Assembly: GCA_025057615.1 (NCBI GenBank)
Contig: JANXBF010000009.1
Coordinates: 1-45,771, forward strand
Direction of reading: 5' to 3'
Source of the DNA: Candidatus Calescibacterium sp.
Lineage (GTDB): Bacteria > DRYD01
Length of the DNA stretch: 45,771 nucleotides
Shown here: positions 2,388-21,195 of the stretch, piece by piece
How positions within the stretch are numbered: position 1 is the first letter of the stretch
How the letters are laid out: the number at the start of each line of letters is the position of its first letter
Made by a program: the position numbers and the translations under genes
The notes under the pieces: model-generated
What the model was told of the DNA's origin: nothing
What the model saw: only the letters and a program-made list of their open reading frames with translations
Databases searched by the model: none

Positions 2388-3593
2388 TCATAATTTTACA
2401 AACTGCCCCAAAATAAGGATTACAAAATAAGAAACTAAACCAACAAATACAGCACCAATAAAGCCAATAACAAAAGGCTTTATTCCTATTCCTCTAAAAA
2501 CAGAAAAATTCGTATTCAACCCAACCGCAGCCATAGCAGTTCCCAACAAATACTTAGAACCCCAAAGCTCACCAATATTATTAACCAAGCTTTTCCATGA
2601 ATTAGAATCAAAAATTCCCAATGCAAGATTTCCATTCATTAAACCTATATCTCCTACAGATCTCAAAACAGCCATAAGAATAAAACCAATTATAAATGTT
2701 GGTATTAAAGAAATAACATTTATTTTTTGATGTTCCTCATCAACTCTACTTCTCAAATAAAGGAAGGCAAGCAGAGGAACAACAATTGCAAGAAATAAAT
2801 TCCTCGTCAATTTAGTTACAGTAGCAGCTTTAAATACAGTATCATCAGAAAAAACCTCTTTGTAGGTAAGAGCAGCACCAACTACCTGTGAAGTCTCATG
2901 AATAGCAGTTCCCAAAAACAATCCTATCTGTTCAGAAGTGGTAAACAAAAATTTAGCTAAATATGGATATAGAAACATAGCCAATAAACCAAATATAGTT
3001 ACGTTAGCTACAGAGTAAGCTATTTCTTTATTATCAGCTTTTATTGCAGGAGATACAGAAACAATAGCAGTAACACCACATATACTGGTACCAGCAGCTA
3101 TTAAAGTCCCCAATTTTTCTGGTAACTTCATCAACCTATTGATAAAATAAATAAATATTAGAGCTGAGAAAATCACGATTAAAACAATTGGTATTCCCCA
3201 AAATCCCAATTTCAACACCTCATTAACACTGAGCTTTATACCAACAAATATTATACCTAACCTGAGAATTTTGGTGACAGAAAAATCTATTCCATTCTTA
3301 AAAATATCAGAAAGCTTAAAAATATTAGAAACTATCATACCAAGAATTATAGCAATCAAAACTGAAGAAATAGGACTGCTCTTACCAGTGGGATCTATAC
3401 CCTGAATTTTCAGTAAAAATTTTCCAATACCATCAGCTATAGGTATAGCAAGCAACATCAAAATAACCGATAAGGCGAGTCCCGGAATTATAGATGGTAA
3501 TAAACGTAAGTTTTTAACTCCGAATAAAGCCTTGATAAATTTATTTTCATTTTCAATTTCTTTATCTACACTTCCTGTTTCCTTTGTACTCAT
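2388..3593 (-). CDS. YeiH-family putative sulfate/anion exporter
   Basis: A 401-residue integral membrane protein with about ten hydrophobic helices, of the YeiH/UPF0324 'putative sulfate exporter' family. Recognisable family segments are SVLIAIILGMIVSN, LRLGIIFVGIKLSV and GTSICGVTAIVSVSPAIKA in the middle, GTAIHETSQVVGAA near residue 230, and AMAAVGLNTNF near the C terminus. Start ATG 3593 follows GGAAGGGG. It sits between the DsrE2-like gene and the CstR-like regulator. Export of sulfite or sulfate made by the persulfide dioxygenase is a reasonable inference, because that enzyme produces sulfite. Biochemical proof of the substrate is thin for the whole family. Confidence 0.85.
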   Translation of the reverse strand: MSTKETGSVDKEIENENKFIKALFGVKNLRLLPSIIPGLALSVILMLLAIPIADGIGKFLLKIQGIDPTGKSSPISSVLIAIILGMIVSNIFKLSDIFKNGIDFSVTKILRLGIIFVGIKLSVNEVLKLGFWGIPIVLIVIFSALIFIYFINRLMKLPEKLGTLIAAGTSICGVTAIVSVSPAIKADNKEIAYSVANVTIFGLLAMFLYPYLAKFLFTTSEQIGLFLGTAIHETSQVVGAALTYKEVFSDDTVFKAATVTKLTRNLFLAIVVPLLAFLYLRSRVDEEHQKINVISLIPTFIIGFILMAVLRSVGDIGLMNGNLALGIFDSNSWKSLVNNIGELWGSKYLLGTAMAAVGLNTNFSVFRGIGIKPFVIGFIGAVFVGLVSYFVILILGQFVKL

Positions 3594-3615
3594 AAAACAT
3601 AACCCCTTCCCAAAA

Positions 3616-4227
3616 CTATATAAATATAGTCATAGCAGAATTGAGAGCGTGCGATAAGAAATAAGCAACTCCTCCAGACTCAACACCTTCCATAAGTTCA
3701 TCATCTTGAATACCCAAAACATCCTTAGACATTTCACAGGCTACAAACCTTATTCCCAGATCTTTAGCAATCTTTATCAAATCCTCAAGAGTATTAACGT
3801 TTTTTTCTTTCATCATCTTTTTTAACATCATAGCTCCTATACCTAAAAAATTCATCTTTGAAACCGGTAGATCGCTATAACTTTTTGGATTAAGCAGAGA
3901 GAATAATTTCTGATGCCATTTCTTATTTTTGAAGTTTCTTTTTACTTTTATAGAATTAATTCCCCAGAAAGTGAAAAAAATAGTAACCTCTTTACCAAAA
4001 GAAGCAGCACCAGTGGCAATTATCATCGAAGCAAGAACTCTATCCAAATCTCCAGAAAAAACAACTATTGAAACCTTATTTTTCTGACTTATAATTTCTG
4101 AAAGCTGGTCCTTTAAATTATTCAACTCTTCTTGTAATTTGTTTATCTGATTGTGCATTTCTGCAACAGATCTTTCTGTAACAGATCGGTTTTCAAATGA
4201 TTCATTTCTTATAGCTTCAAAAGACAT
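3616..4227 (-). CDS. DsrE2-like sulfur-carrier/peroxiredoxin-like protein with N-terminal coiled coil
   Basis: A 203-residue protein. Residues 20-50 are a predicted coiled coil (heptad-like EMHNQINKLQEELNNLKDQL). The rest is a DsrE/DsrF-type fold: VSIVVFSGDLDRVLASMIIATGAASFG, then FFTFWGINS, and a C-terminal FVACEMSKDVLGI holding the single conserved Cys (about residue 164), ending LNSAMTIFI. DsrE2 proteins carry persulfide sulfur and are commonly encoded with TusA and rhodanese, exactly as here. Start ATG 4227 is preceded by GGGGG. Residues 88-125 hold a Lys/Arg/Trp-rich stretch that may contact a partner or membrane. Function as a sulfur relay is inferred from family and context. Confidence 0.86.
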   Translation of the reverse strand: MSFEAIRNESFENRSVTERSVAEMHNQINKLQEELNNLKDQLSEIISQKNKVSIVVFSGDLDRVLASMIIATGAASFGKEVTIFFTFWGINSIKVKRNFKNKKWHQKLFSLLNPKSYSDLPVSKMNFLGIGAMMLKKMMKEKNVNTLEDLIKIAKDLGIRFVACEMSKDVLGIQDDELMEGVESGGVAYFLSHALNSAMTIFI

Positions 4228-16195: not shown

Positions 16196-16702
16196 ATGGT
16201 ATTGCAAAAATTGGAAGAATCCATAAATTTCATAGTTTCTCAAATGGAGTTAAATAACATAGAATATGTGGATTTTGAACAAAAAGATGGGGATAAAACC
16301 TCATTAAAAATAAAAATAGTCAAACAAAATACTAATAGCAAATACATAAATATAGAATCTCCACAAACAATCAAAATTGACTCCGAATTACCAAACAATA
16401 AAGATAATCTCAATCAAGATTCAAAAGATCTTGGAGGATTCAAAATAAAATACATAGAAGACAATAAGCTTTATATAATCTCAACTCTAGTAGGAAAACT
16501 TAAACTTGATAGAAAAATAAATATAGGGGATATAATAAATCCAAAACAAAAAATAGGAGAAATAGAAATATTAAACATAAAAAACCCTATTTCGTTAGAA
16601 TTCAAAATAAGAATACTAGATATAATGACTAACTTTGAAGACAATGTTGATTACGGAAAAATTTTAATATTAGCAGAAAGGATAGAAGATGGAAATAGTT
16701 AG
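16196..16702 (+). CDS. biotin carboxyl carrier (AccB)-like protein without the biotinyl lysine
   Basis: 168 residues with the layout of AccB. The N-terminal helix (LQKLEESINFIVSQMELNNIEYVDFEQ) resembles AccB's, a polar Asn/Asp/Lys linker runs over residues 45-82, and a C-terminal beta sandwich (residues 83-165) follows the biotinyl-domain pattern: VGKLKL..., INIGDIINPKQKIGEIEILNIKNPI, VDYGKILILAE. The motif that should read EAMKM reads EILNI, placing Asn at the biotinylated Lys; a Lys lies two residues later. If the alignment is right this cannot be biotinylated in the usual way. Its stop overlaps the rseP start by 14 bp. A structural or regulatory role is possible; no carboxylase genes are nearby. 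Confidence 0.55.
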   Translation: MVLQKLEESINFIVSQMELNNIEYVDFEQKDGDKTSLKIKIVKQNTNSKYINIESPQTIKIDSELPNNKDNLNQDSKDLGGFKIKYIEDNKLYIISTLVGKLKLDRKINIGDIINPKQKIGEIEILNIKNPISLEFKIRILDIMTNFEDNVDYGKILILAERIEDGNS

Positions 16703-17786
16703 TGTAATACTTGTTATTATTGCTTTTTTCTTCATTATATTATTTCATGAATTTGGACACTATTTGGGGTGTAAGCTTGTTAAAGTAAAAGTTGAAGAGT
16801 TCTCTATTGGTTTGGGTAAAGAATTATGGTCAAAAAGAATTGGAGATACCAAATTCAGTTTCAGACTACTACCAATTGGCGGATACGTTCTGCCTGAAGG
16901 AGAAGAATATAAAAAAGATCAAGAATTATCAGAAACAAACTTCTATTCTAAACCTCTTTGGGCAAGATTAATAATAATAGCACTTGGACCAATATTTAAT
17001 TACATTCTGGCTATAATAATCTTCTTTTTCTTATATAGCATATACGATTATAAAATAACAACAGAAGTACTAATGGTGGCTCCAAATACACCTGCACAAA
17101 AAGCCGGGTTAAAACCCGGAGATATTATAACAAAAATAGACTCAATAAAATTCGATTACTACGAAGGCCAAAAACTAATAGAATACATACACCAAAGTAA
17201 AGACAGAACATTAGAAATTGAAATAAAAAGAGGAAATGAAACGAAAACTTTTAGGATACAAACAGTCTACAACAAAGATCATAATTTTTCTTATATAGGT
17301 TTCAATCCTAAAAAAGCAACAGTATATAGCATTAACCCTATTAGAGGAATAAAAGAATCGTTATTTACAACCTATGATCTAACAATAAAATATCTCAAAG
17401 TAATAATAAGTATCTTTAGTGGAAGCATACCATTAAAAACAGTTGTTGAGCAGTCTGCAGGTCCAATAGGAATAACAAAAATAATGTATGACTTCGCTAA
17501 CAATGGTATCTACAATTATTTGGTTCTCGTTGCTTTTATAAATATTGTCATAGGTTTATTTAACTTATTTCCTTTTCCCGCTTTGGATGGAGGAAGAATA
17601 CTCTTCATCTTAATAAACTACTTATTAATAGGTATTTCAAAAATTACCAAAAAGAAAATATCAATTGAACCAGATAAAGAAGAAATATTTCACAAAGTAG
17701 GATTAGCTTTGTTGTTAATACTCATAGTATTTATTTCTTATAATGATATAGTAAGAATAATAAGAGGTGAAAATTTTATTAAGTAG
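16689..17786 (+). CDS. rseP: RseP/site-2 intramembrane zinc metalloprotease
   Basis: A 365-residue membrane protease. The zinc motif HEFGH is in the first membrane helix (about residues 20-24). A periplasmic PDZ domain follows (APNTPAQKAGLKPGDIITKID, about 136-156). The C-terminal third has the second active-site motif NLFPFPALDGGRILF with the catalytic Asp, and a last membrane segment. The family cuts anti-sigma factors or signal-peptide remnants inside the membrane. It starts within the AccB-like gene (14-bp overlap), so is translationally coupled. tRNA-Leu begins 22 bp after its stop, so the tRNA is probably cut out of the same transcript. Confidence 0.94.
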   Translation: MEIVSVILVIIAFFFIILFHEFGHYLGCKLVKVKVEEFSIGLGKELWSKRIGDTKFSFRLLPIGGYVLPEGEEYKKDQELSETNFYSKPLWARLIIIALGPIFNYILAIIIFFFLYSIYDYKITTEVLMVAPNTPAQKAGLKPGDIITKIDSIKFDYYEGQKLIEYIHQSKDRTLEIEIKRGNETKTFRIQTVYNKDHNFSYIGFNPKKATVYSINPIRGIKESLFTTYDLTIKYLKVIISIFSGSIPLKTVVEQSAGPIGITKIMYDFANNGIYNYLVLVAFINIVIGLFNLFPFPALDGGRILFILINYLLIGISKITKKKISIEPDKEEIFHKVGLALLLILIVFISYNDIVRIIRGENFIK

Positions 17787-17808: not shown

Positions 17809-17894
17809 GCCGGAGTGGCGGAATTGGCAGACGCAGGAGACTCAAAATCTCCCGGAGCTCGCACTCCGTGTGGGTTCGAGTCCCACCTCCGGCA
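17809..17894 (+). tRNA. tRNA-Leu (anticodon CAA)
   Basis: An 86-base class II tRNA. Acceptor GCCGGAG pairs with CTCCGGC, the anticodon stem GGAGA/TCTCC encloses CTCAAAA with anticodon CAA, a long variable arm follows (CGGAGCTCGCACTCCG), and the T loop is GTTCGAGTC. CCA is not encoded. It lies 22 bp after rseP and 9 bp before the start codon of the nuclease gene, with no room for a separate promoter or terminator. Confidence 0.97.
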
Positions 17895-17903
17895 AATAGC
17901 AAA

Positions 17904-18467
17904 ATGAAACTTAAGAAGGTTCAGGTTTATCAATTGGCAACAGATATAGTTACAGATGATGCTGTTGTCATCCTGAAAGAAGAAAACGGAACAGCAATAC
18001 TACCAATAATTATTGGACACTTTGAAGCTTCAAGCATAGCAATAGCCTTAGAAAAACTTAAAATTGAAAGACCTATGACACATGATTTAATCAAAAATAT
18101 ACTTGAAATACTAGACATAAAAATCCAAAAAGTGGTAATAACAGAATTAAAAGGTTCAACATACTATGCAACAATATATATACAAAAAGAAAATAAAGTA
18201 ATAGAAGTTGATGCAAGACCAAGTGACAGTATAGCAATAGCTGTAAGATTAGGATGTCCTATATTCGTAAATGAAAGCTTACTTCAAACACTACCAATAC
18301 TTGAGTATACAGAAAAAACATCTGAAGTCAAAAGTATATCCTCTATACCTGAAGATGAGGAAAAAGAAAAATTTAAGCAATTTTTAGAAAAAATAAAACC
18401 AACAGATTTTATAAAATATTTTCAAGAAGAACAGAAAAAAGAAGATCAACAAGAAAGGGATAGCTAA
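17904..18467 (+). CDS. bifunctional nuclease (BFN/DUF151) domain protein
   Basis: 187 residues. The BFN domain fills residues 1-140 (LKKVQVYQLATDIVTDDAVVILKEENGTAILPIIIGHFEASSIAIALE, and DARPSDSIAIAVRLGCPIFV with the conserved D-x-R-P-S-D-x-I-A motif). A Lys/Glu-rich tail follows. BFN proteins have been reported as DNase/RNase in plants and bacteria, but many members are untested. The correct start is ATG 17904; a longer frame back to 17868 runs into the tRNA. Only 9 bases separate the tRNA 3' end from the ATG and there is no Shine-Dalgarno, so tRNA 3' processing would leave a nearly leaderless mRNA. The stop is 2 bp before mtnP. Confidence 0.88.
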   Translation: MKLKKVQVYQLATDIVTDDAVVILKEENGTAILPIIIGHFEASSIAIALEKLKIERPMTHDLIKNILEILDIKIQKVVITELKGSTYYATIYIQKENKVIEVDARPSDSIAIAVRLGCPIFVNESLLQTLPILEYTEKTSEVKSISSIPEDEEKEKFKQFLEKIKPTDFIKYFQEEQKKEDQQERDS

Positions 18468-18469
18468 CC

Positions 18470-19288
18470 ATGTATAAAGCAGATATAGGTGTATTAGGTG
18501 GAACCGGATTTTACTCATTTCTAAAATCCAAAGAAATAGTTGTTGAAACTCCATATGGGAGCACATCAGATAAAATAGCTTTGGCAGAAGTAGAAGGTAA
18601 AATAGTAGCTTTTCTACCAAGGCACGGAAAAGATCATAGATATCCACCATCAAAAATACCTTACAGAGCAAACATCTGGAGTTTTAAAAAACTAAATGTA
18701 AAGTACATTATAAGTCCATGCGCCGCTGGATCACTACAACCACATATAAAACCTGGGCATATAGTAATATTAGACCAAATATTTGATAGAACTTACAAAA
18801 GAGAAAACACATTTTACGAGGGACCAATAACAACACATATGTCGTTTGCTAACCCTTACAATGAATATTTAAGAAATTTGTTTATAAACAAAGCGAAACA
18901 GATGAATCTTCCATATCATGAAAAAGGAACAGTAGTAGTAATAGAAGGCCCTAGATTCTCAACAAAAGCAGAAAGTAAATTTTATTCACAAATGGGATTT
19001 GATGTAATAAACATGACGCAAATGCCAGAAGCAATATTAGCAAGAGAGTTAGAAATTCCATTCGTTGGAATAGCTTTAATTACAGATTATGATGTTGGAC
19101 TAGAAGGACATCCAGAAATAGAACCAGTTTCTCATAAAATAGCAGTAGAAAATTTTCTAAAAAATCAAGAAAAACTAAAAGAATTAATATTAAACACCAT
19201 AAAAGACATAGATTTAAATAGAGAAGAAGAAGAAAACAAAGCTTTAGAAAATGCCAGATTTTCTGTGGATTGCATCAAATTATTTTGA
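18470..19288 (+). CDS. mtnP: S-methyl-5'-thioadenosine phosphorylase
   Basis: A 272-residue purine phosphorylase family enzyme cleaving 5'-methylthioadenosine to adenine and methylthioribose-1-phosphate (polyamine/SAM salvage). Motifs: GVLGGTGFYSFL at the N terminus, FLPRHGKDHRYPPSKIPYRANIW (the MTAP phosphate and substrate region), GHIVILDQIFDRT, VVVIEGPRFSTKAESKFY, INMTQMPEAILARELEIPF and ITDYDVG with the base-contacting Asp. Shine-Dalgarno AAGGGA lies about 10 bases before ATG, inside the previous gene. The C terminus has a Lys/Glu-rich tail. Inosine-preferring relatives exist, but the PRHGKDH/NMT pattern fits MTAP. Confidence 0.93.
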   Translation: MYKADIGVLGGTGFYSFLKSKEIVVETPYGSTSDKIALAEVEGKIVAFLPRHGKDHRYPPSKIPYRANIWSFKKLNVKYIISPCAAGSLQPHIKPGHIVILDQIFDRTYKRENTFYEGPITTHMSFANPYNEYLRNLFINKAKQMNLPYHEKGTVVVIEGPRFSTKAESKFYSQMGFDVINMTQMPEAILARELEIPFVGIALITDYDVGLEGHPEIEPVSHKIAVENFLKNQEKLKELILNTIKDIDLNREEEENKALENARFSVDCIKLF

Positions 19289-19307: not shown

Positions 19308-19859
19308 GTGAATAGAAAGTCTATTAAATTAGGTTCAAAATTATTGGAAATAGTTTTGGGAGATATAACAAATCAACCAGACATAGAAGCAATCGTCAAT
19401 TCTGCTAATAGAGATTTGAAACCAGGAGGGGGGGTCTCTGGAGCCATACATAAAAAAGCAGGCCCACAATTATATGAATCCTCAAAAAAATTGGCCCCCA
19501 TAAAAGTATCACAAGCAGTTATCACAGAAGGTTTCAATTTACCCAACAAGTACGTCATACATACCTTGGGACCAGTATTTGGAGTTGATAAACCAGAAAG
19601 TGAACTATTAAAACAAACATACATAAACTGTATTCAATTGGCTGACAAATATAACATAAAGTCCATAGCTTTTCCATCTATTTCAACTGGAATATTTGGA
19701 TATCCGATAGAATCAGCTTCGCATATAGCAATAAAAACTATAGAAACAGAATTACCGAAAACAAAAATAGATTTAGTCCGAATAGTATTATATACTCTCG
19801 AAGACTATAAGGTTTATGAAGGGGTTGTAGCTCAAAAGGACAGAGCGTTGCCCTCCTAA
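19308..19859 (+). CDS. macro domain (ADP-ribose-binding) protein whose frame ends inside tRNA-Arg
   Basis: 183 codons. The macro fold is clear: IVLGDITNQPDIEAIVNSANRDLKPGGGVSGAIHKKAG at the N terminus, VIHTLGPVFG, and IAFPSISTGIFGYPIESASHIA, the ADP-ribose phosphate loop. Such proteins bind or hydrolyse ADP-ribose adducts or O-acetyl-ADP-ribose. The GTG at 19308 lacks a clear Shine-Dalgarno. The natural domain end is about EDYKVYE; no stop follows there. Translation continues for 12 codons (GVVAQKDRALPS) through the first half of tRNA-Arg and stops at TAA 19857-19859, which overlaps anticodon base 36. Excision of the tRNA would therefore remove the stop codon. Confidence 0.88.
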   Translation: MNRKSIKLGSKLLEIVLGDITNQPDIEAIVNSANRDLKPGGGVSGAIHKKAGPQLYESSKKLAPIKVSQAVITEGFNLPNKYVIHTLGPVFGVDKPESELLKQTYINCIQLADKYNIKSIAFPSISTGIFGYPIESASHIAIKTIETELPKTKIDLVRIVLYTLEDYKVYEGVVAQKDRALPS

Positions 19860-19894
19860 GGCAAAGGTTGCCGGTTCGATTCCGGCCAACCCCA
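19821..19894 (+). tRNA. tRNA-Arg (anticodon CCT)
   Basis: A 74-base tRNA. Acceptor GGGGTTG/CAACCCC, D arm with AGCTCAAAAGGACAGAGC, anticodon stem TTGCC/GGCAA with loop CTCCTAA (anticodon CCT, reading AGG), T arm GCCGG-TTCGATT-CCGGC. CCA is not encoded. Its first 39 bases are also the last codons and stop of the macro-domain gene, and its 3' end lies 11 bp before dnaA. Confidence 0.97.
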
Positions 19895-19905
19895 AATTCT
19901 AAAAA

Positions 19906-21195
19906 ATGGAAAAAGAACTCCTTAATCTATTCATAGATGAACTCGGTCAAATCGCTTACGACATATGTTTCAACATAAGTAACTCATCAATAGATAAAAA
20001 CGAAAAAAAGATGAATATAATAACTACTGACAGCTCAATAAAAGAATGGATAGAAAAAAAATATTCCCCACTAATAAAAGAAGTATTAGAAAAATACTTT
20101 AATGATGATTCCTGGACAATAGAAGTTAAAGTAAAAGATAATGAACAAGAAATAGTAGAAACATCTTTAGATATATTAAATCCATTTTTTAATTTTGACA
20201 ATTTCGTAGTAGGTAATAGTAACCAATTTGCATACGCAGCTTCATTAGCAGTTGCTCAGAAACCAGGTAAAGCCTATAACCCTTTATTCATATATGGATC
20301 AACAGGATTGGGAAAAACACATTTATTACATGCAATAGGTAATCTGGCTTACAAAAGAAAAATATCAAAAAAAATAATATATATAACATCAGAAAGATTT
20401 ATAAATGATCTTGTTAACTCCATAAAAGAAAAAAAAATAGAAGATTTCAGAAATAAATATAGGAAAGCGGAAGTACTACTAATTGATGATATTCAATTTA
20501 TAAGTGGAAAAGAAAGAACACAAGAAGAATTATTCCACACATTTAATGAATTATATTTAGATAATAAACAAATAGTACTCACAAGTGATAGACCACCAAA
20601 AGACCTAGAAGGAATAGAAGAAAGGCTAAAATCCAGATTCCAATCCGGTCTAATTGCAGACGTTCAACTACCAGATTTTGAAACTCGTAAGGCAATACTA
20701 AAGAAAAAAATAGAAAACTATAATATAGATTTTGATGAACAGGTTGTAGATTTTTTAGCACAAAAATTCAGAAACAATATAAGAGAAATAGAAGGAGCCA
20801 TAATTAAAATAGTAGCATACGTCAATCTTAATAAAATTAATATTGAAAAAGTAAAAATAGAACATATTTCAGAAATAATAAAAGACGTAACAATAGATGA
20901 CAATAAAATAACTCCTGAAAACATAATAGACACAGTATCAGAATATTTCAGTGTAACCAAAGATGAAATATTTTCTAATTCAAGGGAAAAGAGAATAGTC
21001 TACCCTAGACATGTAATAACCTATCTACTGAGAGATATACTAGGCCTCTCTTTTAAAGGAATAGGAAGCTATTTAAAAAAAGATCATACCACTATAATGC
21101 ATTCTTATGAAAAAATTAATATAATGTTAGCAAGTCCCAAAGTATACAAAGATATAACGAATATTAAGGAAAAATTATATGATAAATATCACTAA
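19906..21195 (+). CDS. dnaA: chromosomal replication initiator protein DnaA
   Basis: 429 residues. A short domain I lies at 1-80, then the AAA+ core with Walker A IYGSTGLGKTHLLHAIGN (about 129-146), Walker B VLLIDDIQFISGKERTQEE, sensor LTSDRPPKDLEGIEERLKSRF, and the DNA-binding domain IV with REKRIVYPRHVITYLLRD and the box-contacting DHTTIMHS (about 394-401). It melts and organises the replication origin. The start is 11 bases after tRNA-Arg and has no Shine-Dalgarno. No DnaA-box cluster or dnaN lies next to it, so the origin is probably elsewhere. Last large gene of the plus-strand island. Confidence 0.97.
   Translation: MEKELLNLFIDELGQIAYDICFNISNSSIDKNEKKMNIITTDSSIKEWIEKKYSPLIKEVLEKYFNDDSWTIEVKVKDNEQEIVETSLDILNPFFNFDNFVVGNSNQFAYAASLAVAQKPGKAYNPLFIYGSTGLGKTHLLHAIGNLAYKRKISKKIIYITSERFINDLVNSIKEKKIEDFRNKYRKAEVLLIDDIQFISGKERTQEELFHTFNELYLDNKQIVLTSDRPPKDLEGIEERLKSRFQSGLIADVQLPDFETRKAILKKKIENYNIDFDEQVVDFLAQKFRNNIREIEGAIIKIVAYVNLNKINIEKVKIEHISEIIKDVTIDDNKITPENIIDTVSEYFSVTKDEIFSNSREKRIVYPRHVITYLLRDILGLSFKGIGSYLKKDHTTIMHSYEKINIMLASPKVYKDITNIKEKLYDKYH

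Follow-up and report, generated by a model that had tools for sequence, protein, structure and literature searches.

A macro-domain gene with its stop codon in the anticodon loop of a downstream tRNA-Arg gene

Can a bacterial protein gene do without a stop codon of its own and end inside the tRNA gene that follows it, and does such an arrangement serve to regulate either product? The question arises from a window of 45,771 nucleotides (the whole stretch of DNA analyzed here, contig JANXBF010000009.1) of Candidatus Calescibacterium sp., a small-genome uncultured bacterium with a tightly packed genome, represented by a draft assembly of 91 contigs with a completeness of about 84%. One run of genes in this window lies entirely on the positive strand with short gaps: rseP, for a site-2 protease (16689 to 17786; TIGR00054 above cut-off), tRNA-Leu(CAA) (17809 to 17894), a gene with a bifunctional nuclease domain (17904 to 18467; PF02577), the S-methyl-5'-thioadenosine phosphorylase (MTAP) gene (18470 to 19288; TIGR01694 above cut-off), the macro-domain protein gene (19308 to 19859), tRNA-Arg(CCT) (19821 to 19894), and dnaA (19906 to 21195; TIGR00362, 1e-138). 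At tRNA-Leu(CAA), the second tRNA of the run, the preceding gene stops 22 nt short and there is no overlap.

The macro-domain gene, recognized from its open reading frame and its match to Pfam Macro (PF01661, 6e-39, 133 bits against a cut-off of 22), starts with GTG and encodes 183 amino acids. Its frame contains no stop ahead of tRNA-Arg(CCT) and is first closed by the TAA at 19857 to 19859, within the tRNA. A first-pass annotation of this DNA had reported the missing stop, as well as the sharing of anticodon base 36, and we confirm both: ARAGORN places the anticodon CCT at 19855 to 19857, so that the TAA makes up the 3' end of the anticodon loop, U36, A37, and A38. The overlap on the positive strand measures 39 nt (19821 to 19859) and holds the last 12 macro codons, GVVAQKDRALPS, plus the stop; on the tRNA side it takes in the acceptor 5' strand, the D arm, and the anticodon arm up to the end of its loop. 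The tRNA, found by ARAGORN and Rfam (tRNA model, 73.4 bits), forms a full cloverleaf with intact stems (MFE of -30.3 kcal/mol, z of -2.7) and has no encoded CCA. The draft genome, about 84% complete, yielded no other full-length copy of tRNA-Arg(CCT). The same-strand overlap of a protein gene with a tRNA gene is genuine, and the entry of an open frame without a stop into an intact downstream tRNA is a feature of selB/selC-type overlaps. Since the base preceding the tRNA completes a GAA codon, the RNase P cut expected at 19820 to 19821 (from the tRNA 5' end and the presence of an RNase P RNA gene) would fall on a codon boundary, between GAA and GGG.

The junction, VYE followed by GVVAQKDRALPS and the stop, is identical in two other species of the genus, whose macro proteins share 96% (genome G003, locus L032) and 70% (genome G002, locus L033) identity with that of the host (genome G000). 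The pairwise dS values were 0.51 and 2.0, and the dN values were 0.019 and 0.207, respectively. All amino acids of the tRNA-encoded tail are the same in L032 and L033, and the sole difference within the overlap is a silent C-to-T change (GAC to GAT) in the D loop, at tRNA base 21 counted along the tRNA. The sequence of tRNA-Arg(CCT) is 99 to 100% conserved, the TAA occupies tRNA nucleotides 37 to 39 in all three genomes, and the seven codons abutting the tRNA contain only one amino-acid difference. At a dS of 2, a neutral model (a rough Jukes-Cantor estimate) predicts 2.7 changes to a stop within the final four codons before the tRNA, and a probability of about 0.07 that none occurs. The conserved junction, the dN and dS figures, and this neutral estimate show that the frame has been maintained as coding sequence all the way to the tRNA boundary. 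Within the tRNA stretch itself, selection on the protein and selection on the tRNA are inseparable. The overlap is carried by three genomes, all of them drafts; the contig of a fourth species ends inside the macro gene.

Are the residues encoded by the tRNA part of the protein proper? The first-pass annotation had held that the natural protein probably ends near VYE. All 28 homologues that lack the tRNA junction extend at least 4 residues beyond the VYE position. The sister-genus proteins, whose C termini read IYKDTLNTLINSET and TYKESLTNILK before the stop, end 8 and 11 residues beyond it, compared with 12 in the host. In the alignment of homologues that had been proposed as a check, the tRNA-encoded tail is common to three species of the genus, and none of the 28 homologues ends at VYE. 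An AlphaFold model built from a 29-sequence alignment (mean pLDDT of 95.6) contains a C-terminal helix at residues 164 to 178, seven of which (172 to 178) are contributed by the tRNA. The pLDDT was 81 for the block 171 to 180 and about 48 for residues 181 to 183, a part of the tail that may be no more than tolerated. Among solved macrodomains, 49 of the 50 matches listed reach model residue 173 or beyond; the structure alignments extend to residue 177 for Escherichia coli YmdB, 180-181 for the O. iheyensis macrodomain, and 178 for AF1521. The O. iheyensis macrodomain (5lau) and YmdB (5cb5) have the same fold as the host protein over the whole chain (Z of 31.1 and 29.2), and, as in both, the C-terminal helix of the host protein passes the VYE position. 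On the strength of homologue length, solved structures, and the AlphaFold helix, we rejected a protein ending at VYE. For the same reasons, the tRNA-encoded tail, which would have to be translated, appears to take the place that the end of the last helix normally fills.

The best solved match (Z of 31.1, rmsd of 1.2) and the ADP-ribose-binding sequence assign the protein to the macro fold of MacroD type, with one departure. The loop encoded at 19425 to 19451 reads GGGVSGAIH, where the MacroD type has GGGVDGAIH. Ser44 thus replaces the Asp of MacroD-type hydrolases, which is present in the wild-type O. iheyensis protein, unlike in the host; the activity may differ, and hydrolase activity should not be assumed from the sequence.

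RNase P RNA, tmRNA (tag AEELALAA), and SmpB are all encoded in the genome; the last two are the components that an arfA-like stop-less mRNA calls for. Given the intact tRNA and these three genes, RNase P cleavage, predicted from the position of the tRNA 5' end, should leave a macro mRNA without a stop. The earlier suggestion that tRNA 5' processing would strip the stop from the macro mRNA is therefore well founded, as the cut site precedes the TAA and RNase P RNA is encoded. The macro gene and the tRNA likely share one transcript. Promoter- and terminator-like sites in the region occur at chance level and do not bear either way on a separate promoter for the tRNA, and a search for repeats around the junction returned nothing relevant. 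Competition of the two products for each transcript, another part of the earlier proposal, is plausible, and translation first with processing afterwards would fit equally well.

We favor, with a probability of roughly 0.72, a compact-genome overlap in which the 5' half of the tRNA doubles as the final 12 codons plus stop of the macro gene and both products come from one transcript. The macro mRNA and tRNA-Arg(CCT) would be made as a single operon transcript, on which ribosomes would traverse the tRNA half in its unfolded state and stop at the UAA in the anticodon loop. Once no ribosome is present, the tRNA would fold, RNase P would cut at 19820/19821, and the tRNA would be released; tmRNA would then rescue the last ribosomes on the macro mRNA, which would now lack its stop. 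Such successive use of one transcript, translated while unfolded and then folded and cut, is the simplest model. Loss or rearrangement of sequence in a packed genome most likely placed the tRNA at the end of the gene, and the overlap would have been retained for the part that its tRNA-encoded residues play in completing the C-terminal helix. The model works without a dedicated regulatory link to either tRNA supply or dnaA.

A link of that kind would nevertheless follow if RNase P processing and macro translation were mutually exclusive, with the balance between them setting the level of the macro protein, and perhaps of DnaA, against the supply of tRNA-Arg. The cut on a codon boundary that removes the stop, the encoded rescue machinery (tmRNA and SmpB), and the persistence of the arrangement over a dS of about 2 would all suit such a switch, and the same has been proposed for selB/selC (Mukai 2021, PMC8124441). 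Unlike SelB and tRNA-Sec, however, the macro domain and tRNA-Arg(CCT) have no functional tie and no known common pathway. The genome also encodes tRNA-Arg(TCT), which is expected to read AGG by wobble, and AGG is a seldom-used arginine codon (7 AGG versus 37 AGA in six genes of the window). Moreover, only three species, all of one genus, have macro, tRNA-Arg(CCT), and dnaA side by side; the sister genus carries a macro gene that has its own stop and lies beside alaS (on the other strand) with no tRNA there, and tRNA-Arg(CCT) is elsewhere. The unrelated genes hisC and tadA overlap other tRNAs in a similar manner, which points to a general by-product. We therefore consider the switch unlikely, and would grant a dedicated switch of any form that same low standing at best. 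The separation of the trio in the sister genus and the presence of tRNA-Arg(TCT) leave the proposed connection among ADP-ribose metabolism, tRNA-Arg supply, and dnaA without support. Still harder to credit is the broader view that the locus is a true RNase P/ribosome switch among macro, tRNA-Arg(CCT), and dnaA and that overlaps with ordinary tRNAs (macro, hisC, tadA) impose a widespread, overlooked tmRNA-dependent control in compact bacterial genomes.

Two further readings were weighed. If RNase P always acted first, the functional macro protein would end at VYE and be released by tmRNA or another rescue factor, and the tail would never be made. This would agree with tRNA processing being generally fast and with the encoded tmRNA system, and E. 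coli ArfA sets an example of a protein produced from an mRNA that lacks its stop (PMC10070815). It is opposed by the residues found beyond VYE in every homologue compared, by the solved structures and the AlphaFold model that extend past this point, and by tmRNA tagging, which would direct the product to proteases; we regard it as decidedly improbable. That the overlap is an artefact, whether from a sequencing error, a tRNA pseudogene, or a falsely extended frame, might be suspected in a draft of 91 contigs, and we assign this a chance close to negligible. Three independent assemblies share the junction, two of them at 96% and 70% protein identity to the host. This rules out a sequencing error, including one before 19821 of the sort that the first-pass annotation had named as fatal to its proposal; in addition, the tRNA is conserved with its stems intact and dN is far below dS.

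Genes for selB that contain or end inside tRNA-Sec have been described in Alphaproteobacteria, Dyella/Luteibacter, and Nitrospirae, with the selB stop at tRNA-Sec nucleotides 46 to 48 in Dyella/Luteibacter, and processing of tRNA-Sec was proposed to yield stop-less selB mRNA and repress selB (Mukai 2021, PMC8124441). A literature search for other bacterial protein/tRNA overlaps found only this paper. The two cases resemble each other in the open reading frame that enters a tRNA in the same direction, in a stop inside the tRNA (in Dyella/Luteibacter), and in the proposed stop-less mRNA; close relatives of these selB genes keep their own stop before the tRNA. They differ in that the host locus combines an elongator tRNA-Arg with an unrelated macro protein, its stop uses anticodon base 36, its tail replaces a conserved helix end rather than adding an extension, and its products are functionally unconnected. 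Thus, the macro/tRNA-Arg(CCT) pair belongs to a rare, already described class of overlap, here with an elongator tRNA and an unrelated protein; since the pathway shared by SelB and tRNA-Sec has no counterpart, it is the same kind of overlap and not a selB/selC case.

Animal mitochondria also contain gene/tRNA overlaps, such as the tRNA-Lys within cox1 of Armadillidium vulgare (cited in PMC8124441). Protein gene and tRNA there have bases and one transcript in common, as would apply here, but in compact mitochondrial genomes and not in a bacterial chromosome with tmRNA rescue. In E. coli arfA, an RNase III cut removes the stop and tmRNA controls the product (PMC10070815). By analogy, the macro/tRNA-Arg locus could work like arfA, because, with an RNase cut ahead of the stop codon, translation would come to rely on ribosome rescue; tmRNA control of arfA is established and the cut there is made by RNase III, whereas the host cut would be made by RNase P at a tRNA.

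How common are such overlaps? A scan of the 37 tRNAs of the host and the 44 of G002 revealed one further gene running well into a tRNA, so that 2 of the 37 host tRNAs have a protein gene (at least 100 amino acids) ending inside them. This gene, a class I/II aminotransferase that we call hisC from its sequence rather than from a curated model, lies at 2848-4048 on the minus strand in the host (L106, G000:C8; other loci L144, L156-L158, and L161). It runs 23-24 nt into tRNA-Arg(GCG) in the host, G003, and G002, with the tail ARSSSG before the stop. In G001, of the same genus, hisC has its own TAA 2 nt before tRNA-Arg(GCG) and 13 nt more sequence, and the sister-genus hisC has its own stop and no tRNA nearby. 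The state with an own stop is therefore probably ancestral, and a loss of about 13 bases would have joined the frame to the tRNA. The dN of the longer hisC stretch is unreliable, as its two sequences were compared without gap alignment, and the figure considered for hisC is that of the last 25 codons. No such ancestral step was seen for the macro gene in the sister genus (alaS neighbor, own stop, no tRNA). In the host genome, 19 of 28 upstream genes end at most 50 nt from a tRNA or inside it; with many genes ending 0-50 nt before tRNAs, a small deletion is enough to create an overlap. Frames entering the host's 37 tRNAs were closed inside the tRNA in 59 of 111 cases.

Four control genomes from other families, with 157 tRNAs, contained four protein ORFs (at least 100 amino acids) ending inside a tRNA: two transposases in one genome (G016) and two tadA-like deaminases from two different families, which end 25 nt (L178, 1163-1645) and 14 nt (L234, 578-1054) inside tRNA-Ser(CGA). 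We set aside the G016 transposase ORFs as insertion effects, and frames that only start inside tRNAs as over-extended start codons. Without the transposases, the excess in the host over the controls was not significant (2 of 37 versus 2 of 157, Fisher p of 0.17). Protein genes ending inside tRNAs are thus uncommon but recurrent. In G016 (L173, L178, L179, and L182), copies of one transposase family lie just upstream of tRNAs, with frames running into or through them, a placement that suggests insertion next to tRNAs. G002 holds a 183-amino-acid ORF (L149, 950-1501) that shares a single base with tRNA-Ser(GGA): the G of its TAG stop is also tRNA base 1.

With the macro/tRNA-Arg(CCT) locus, the kind of overlap published for selB and tRNA-Sec is extended to an ordinary elongator tRNA and to a protein whose fold appears to be completed by tRNA-encoded residues; together with hisC, the locus shows how gene/tRNA overlaps arise inside one genus. 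Annotation rules that bar such overlaps would truncate or drop real genes. These loci also provide natural test cases for the question of whether RNase P cleavage is a source of stop-less mRNAs for tmRNA.

Downstream, dnaA starts 11 nt past the tRNA, and no Shine-Dalgarno sequence was seen at 19895-19906. After 3' processing of the tRNA, the dnaA mRNA leader would be very short. Several genes neighboring dnaA likewise have no clear Shine-Dalgarno sequence.
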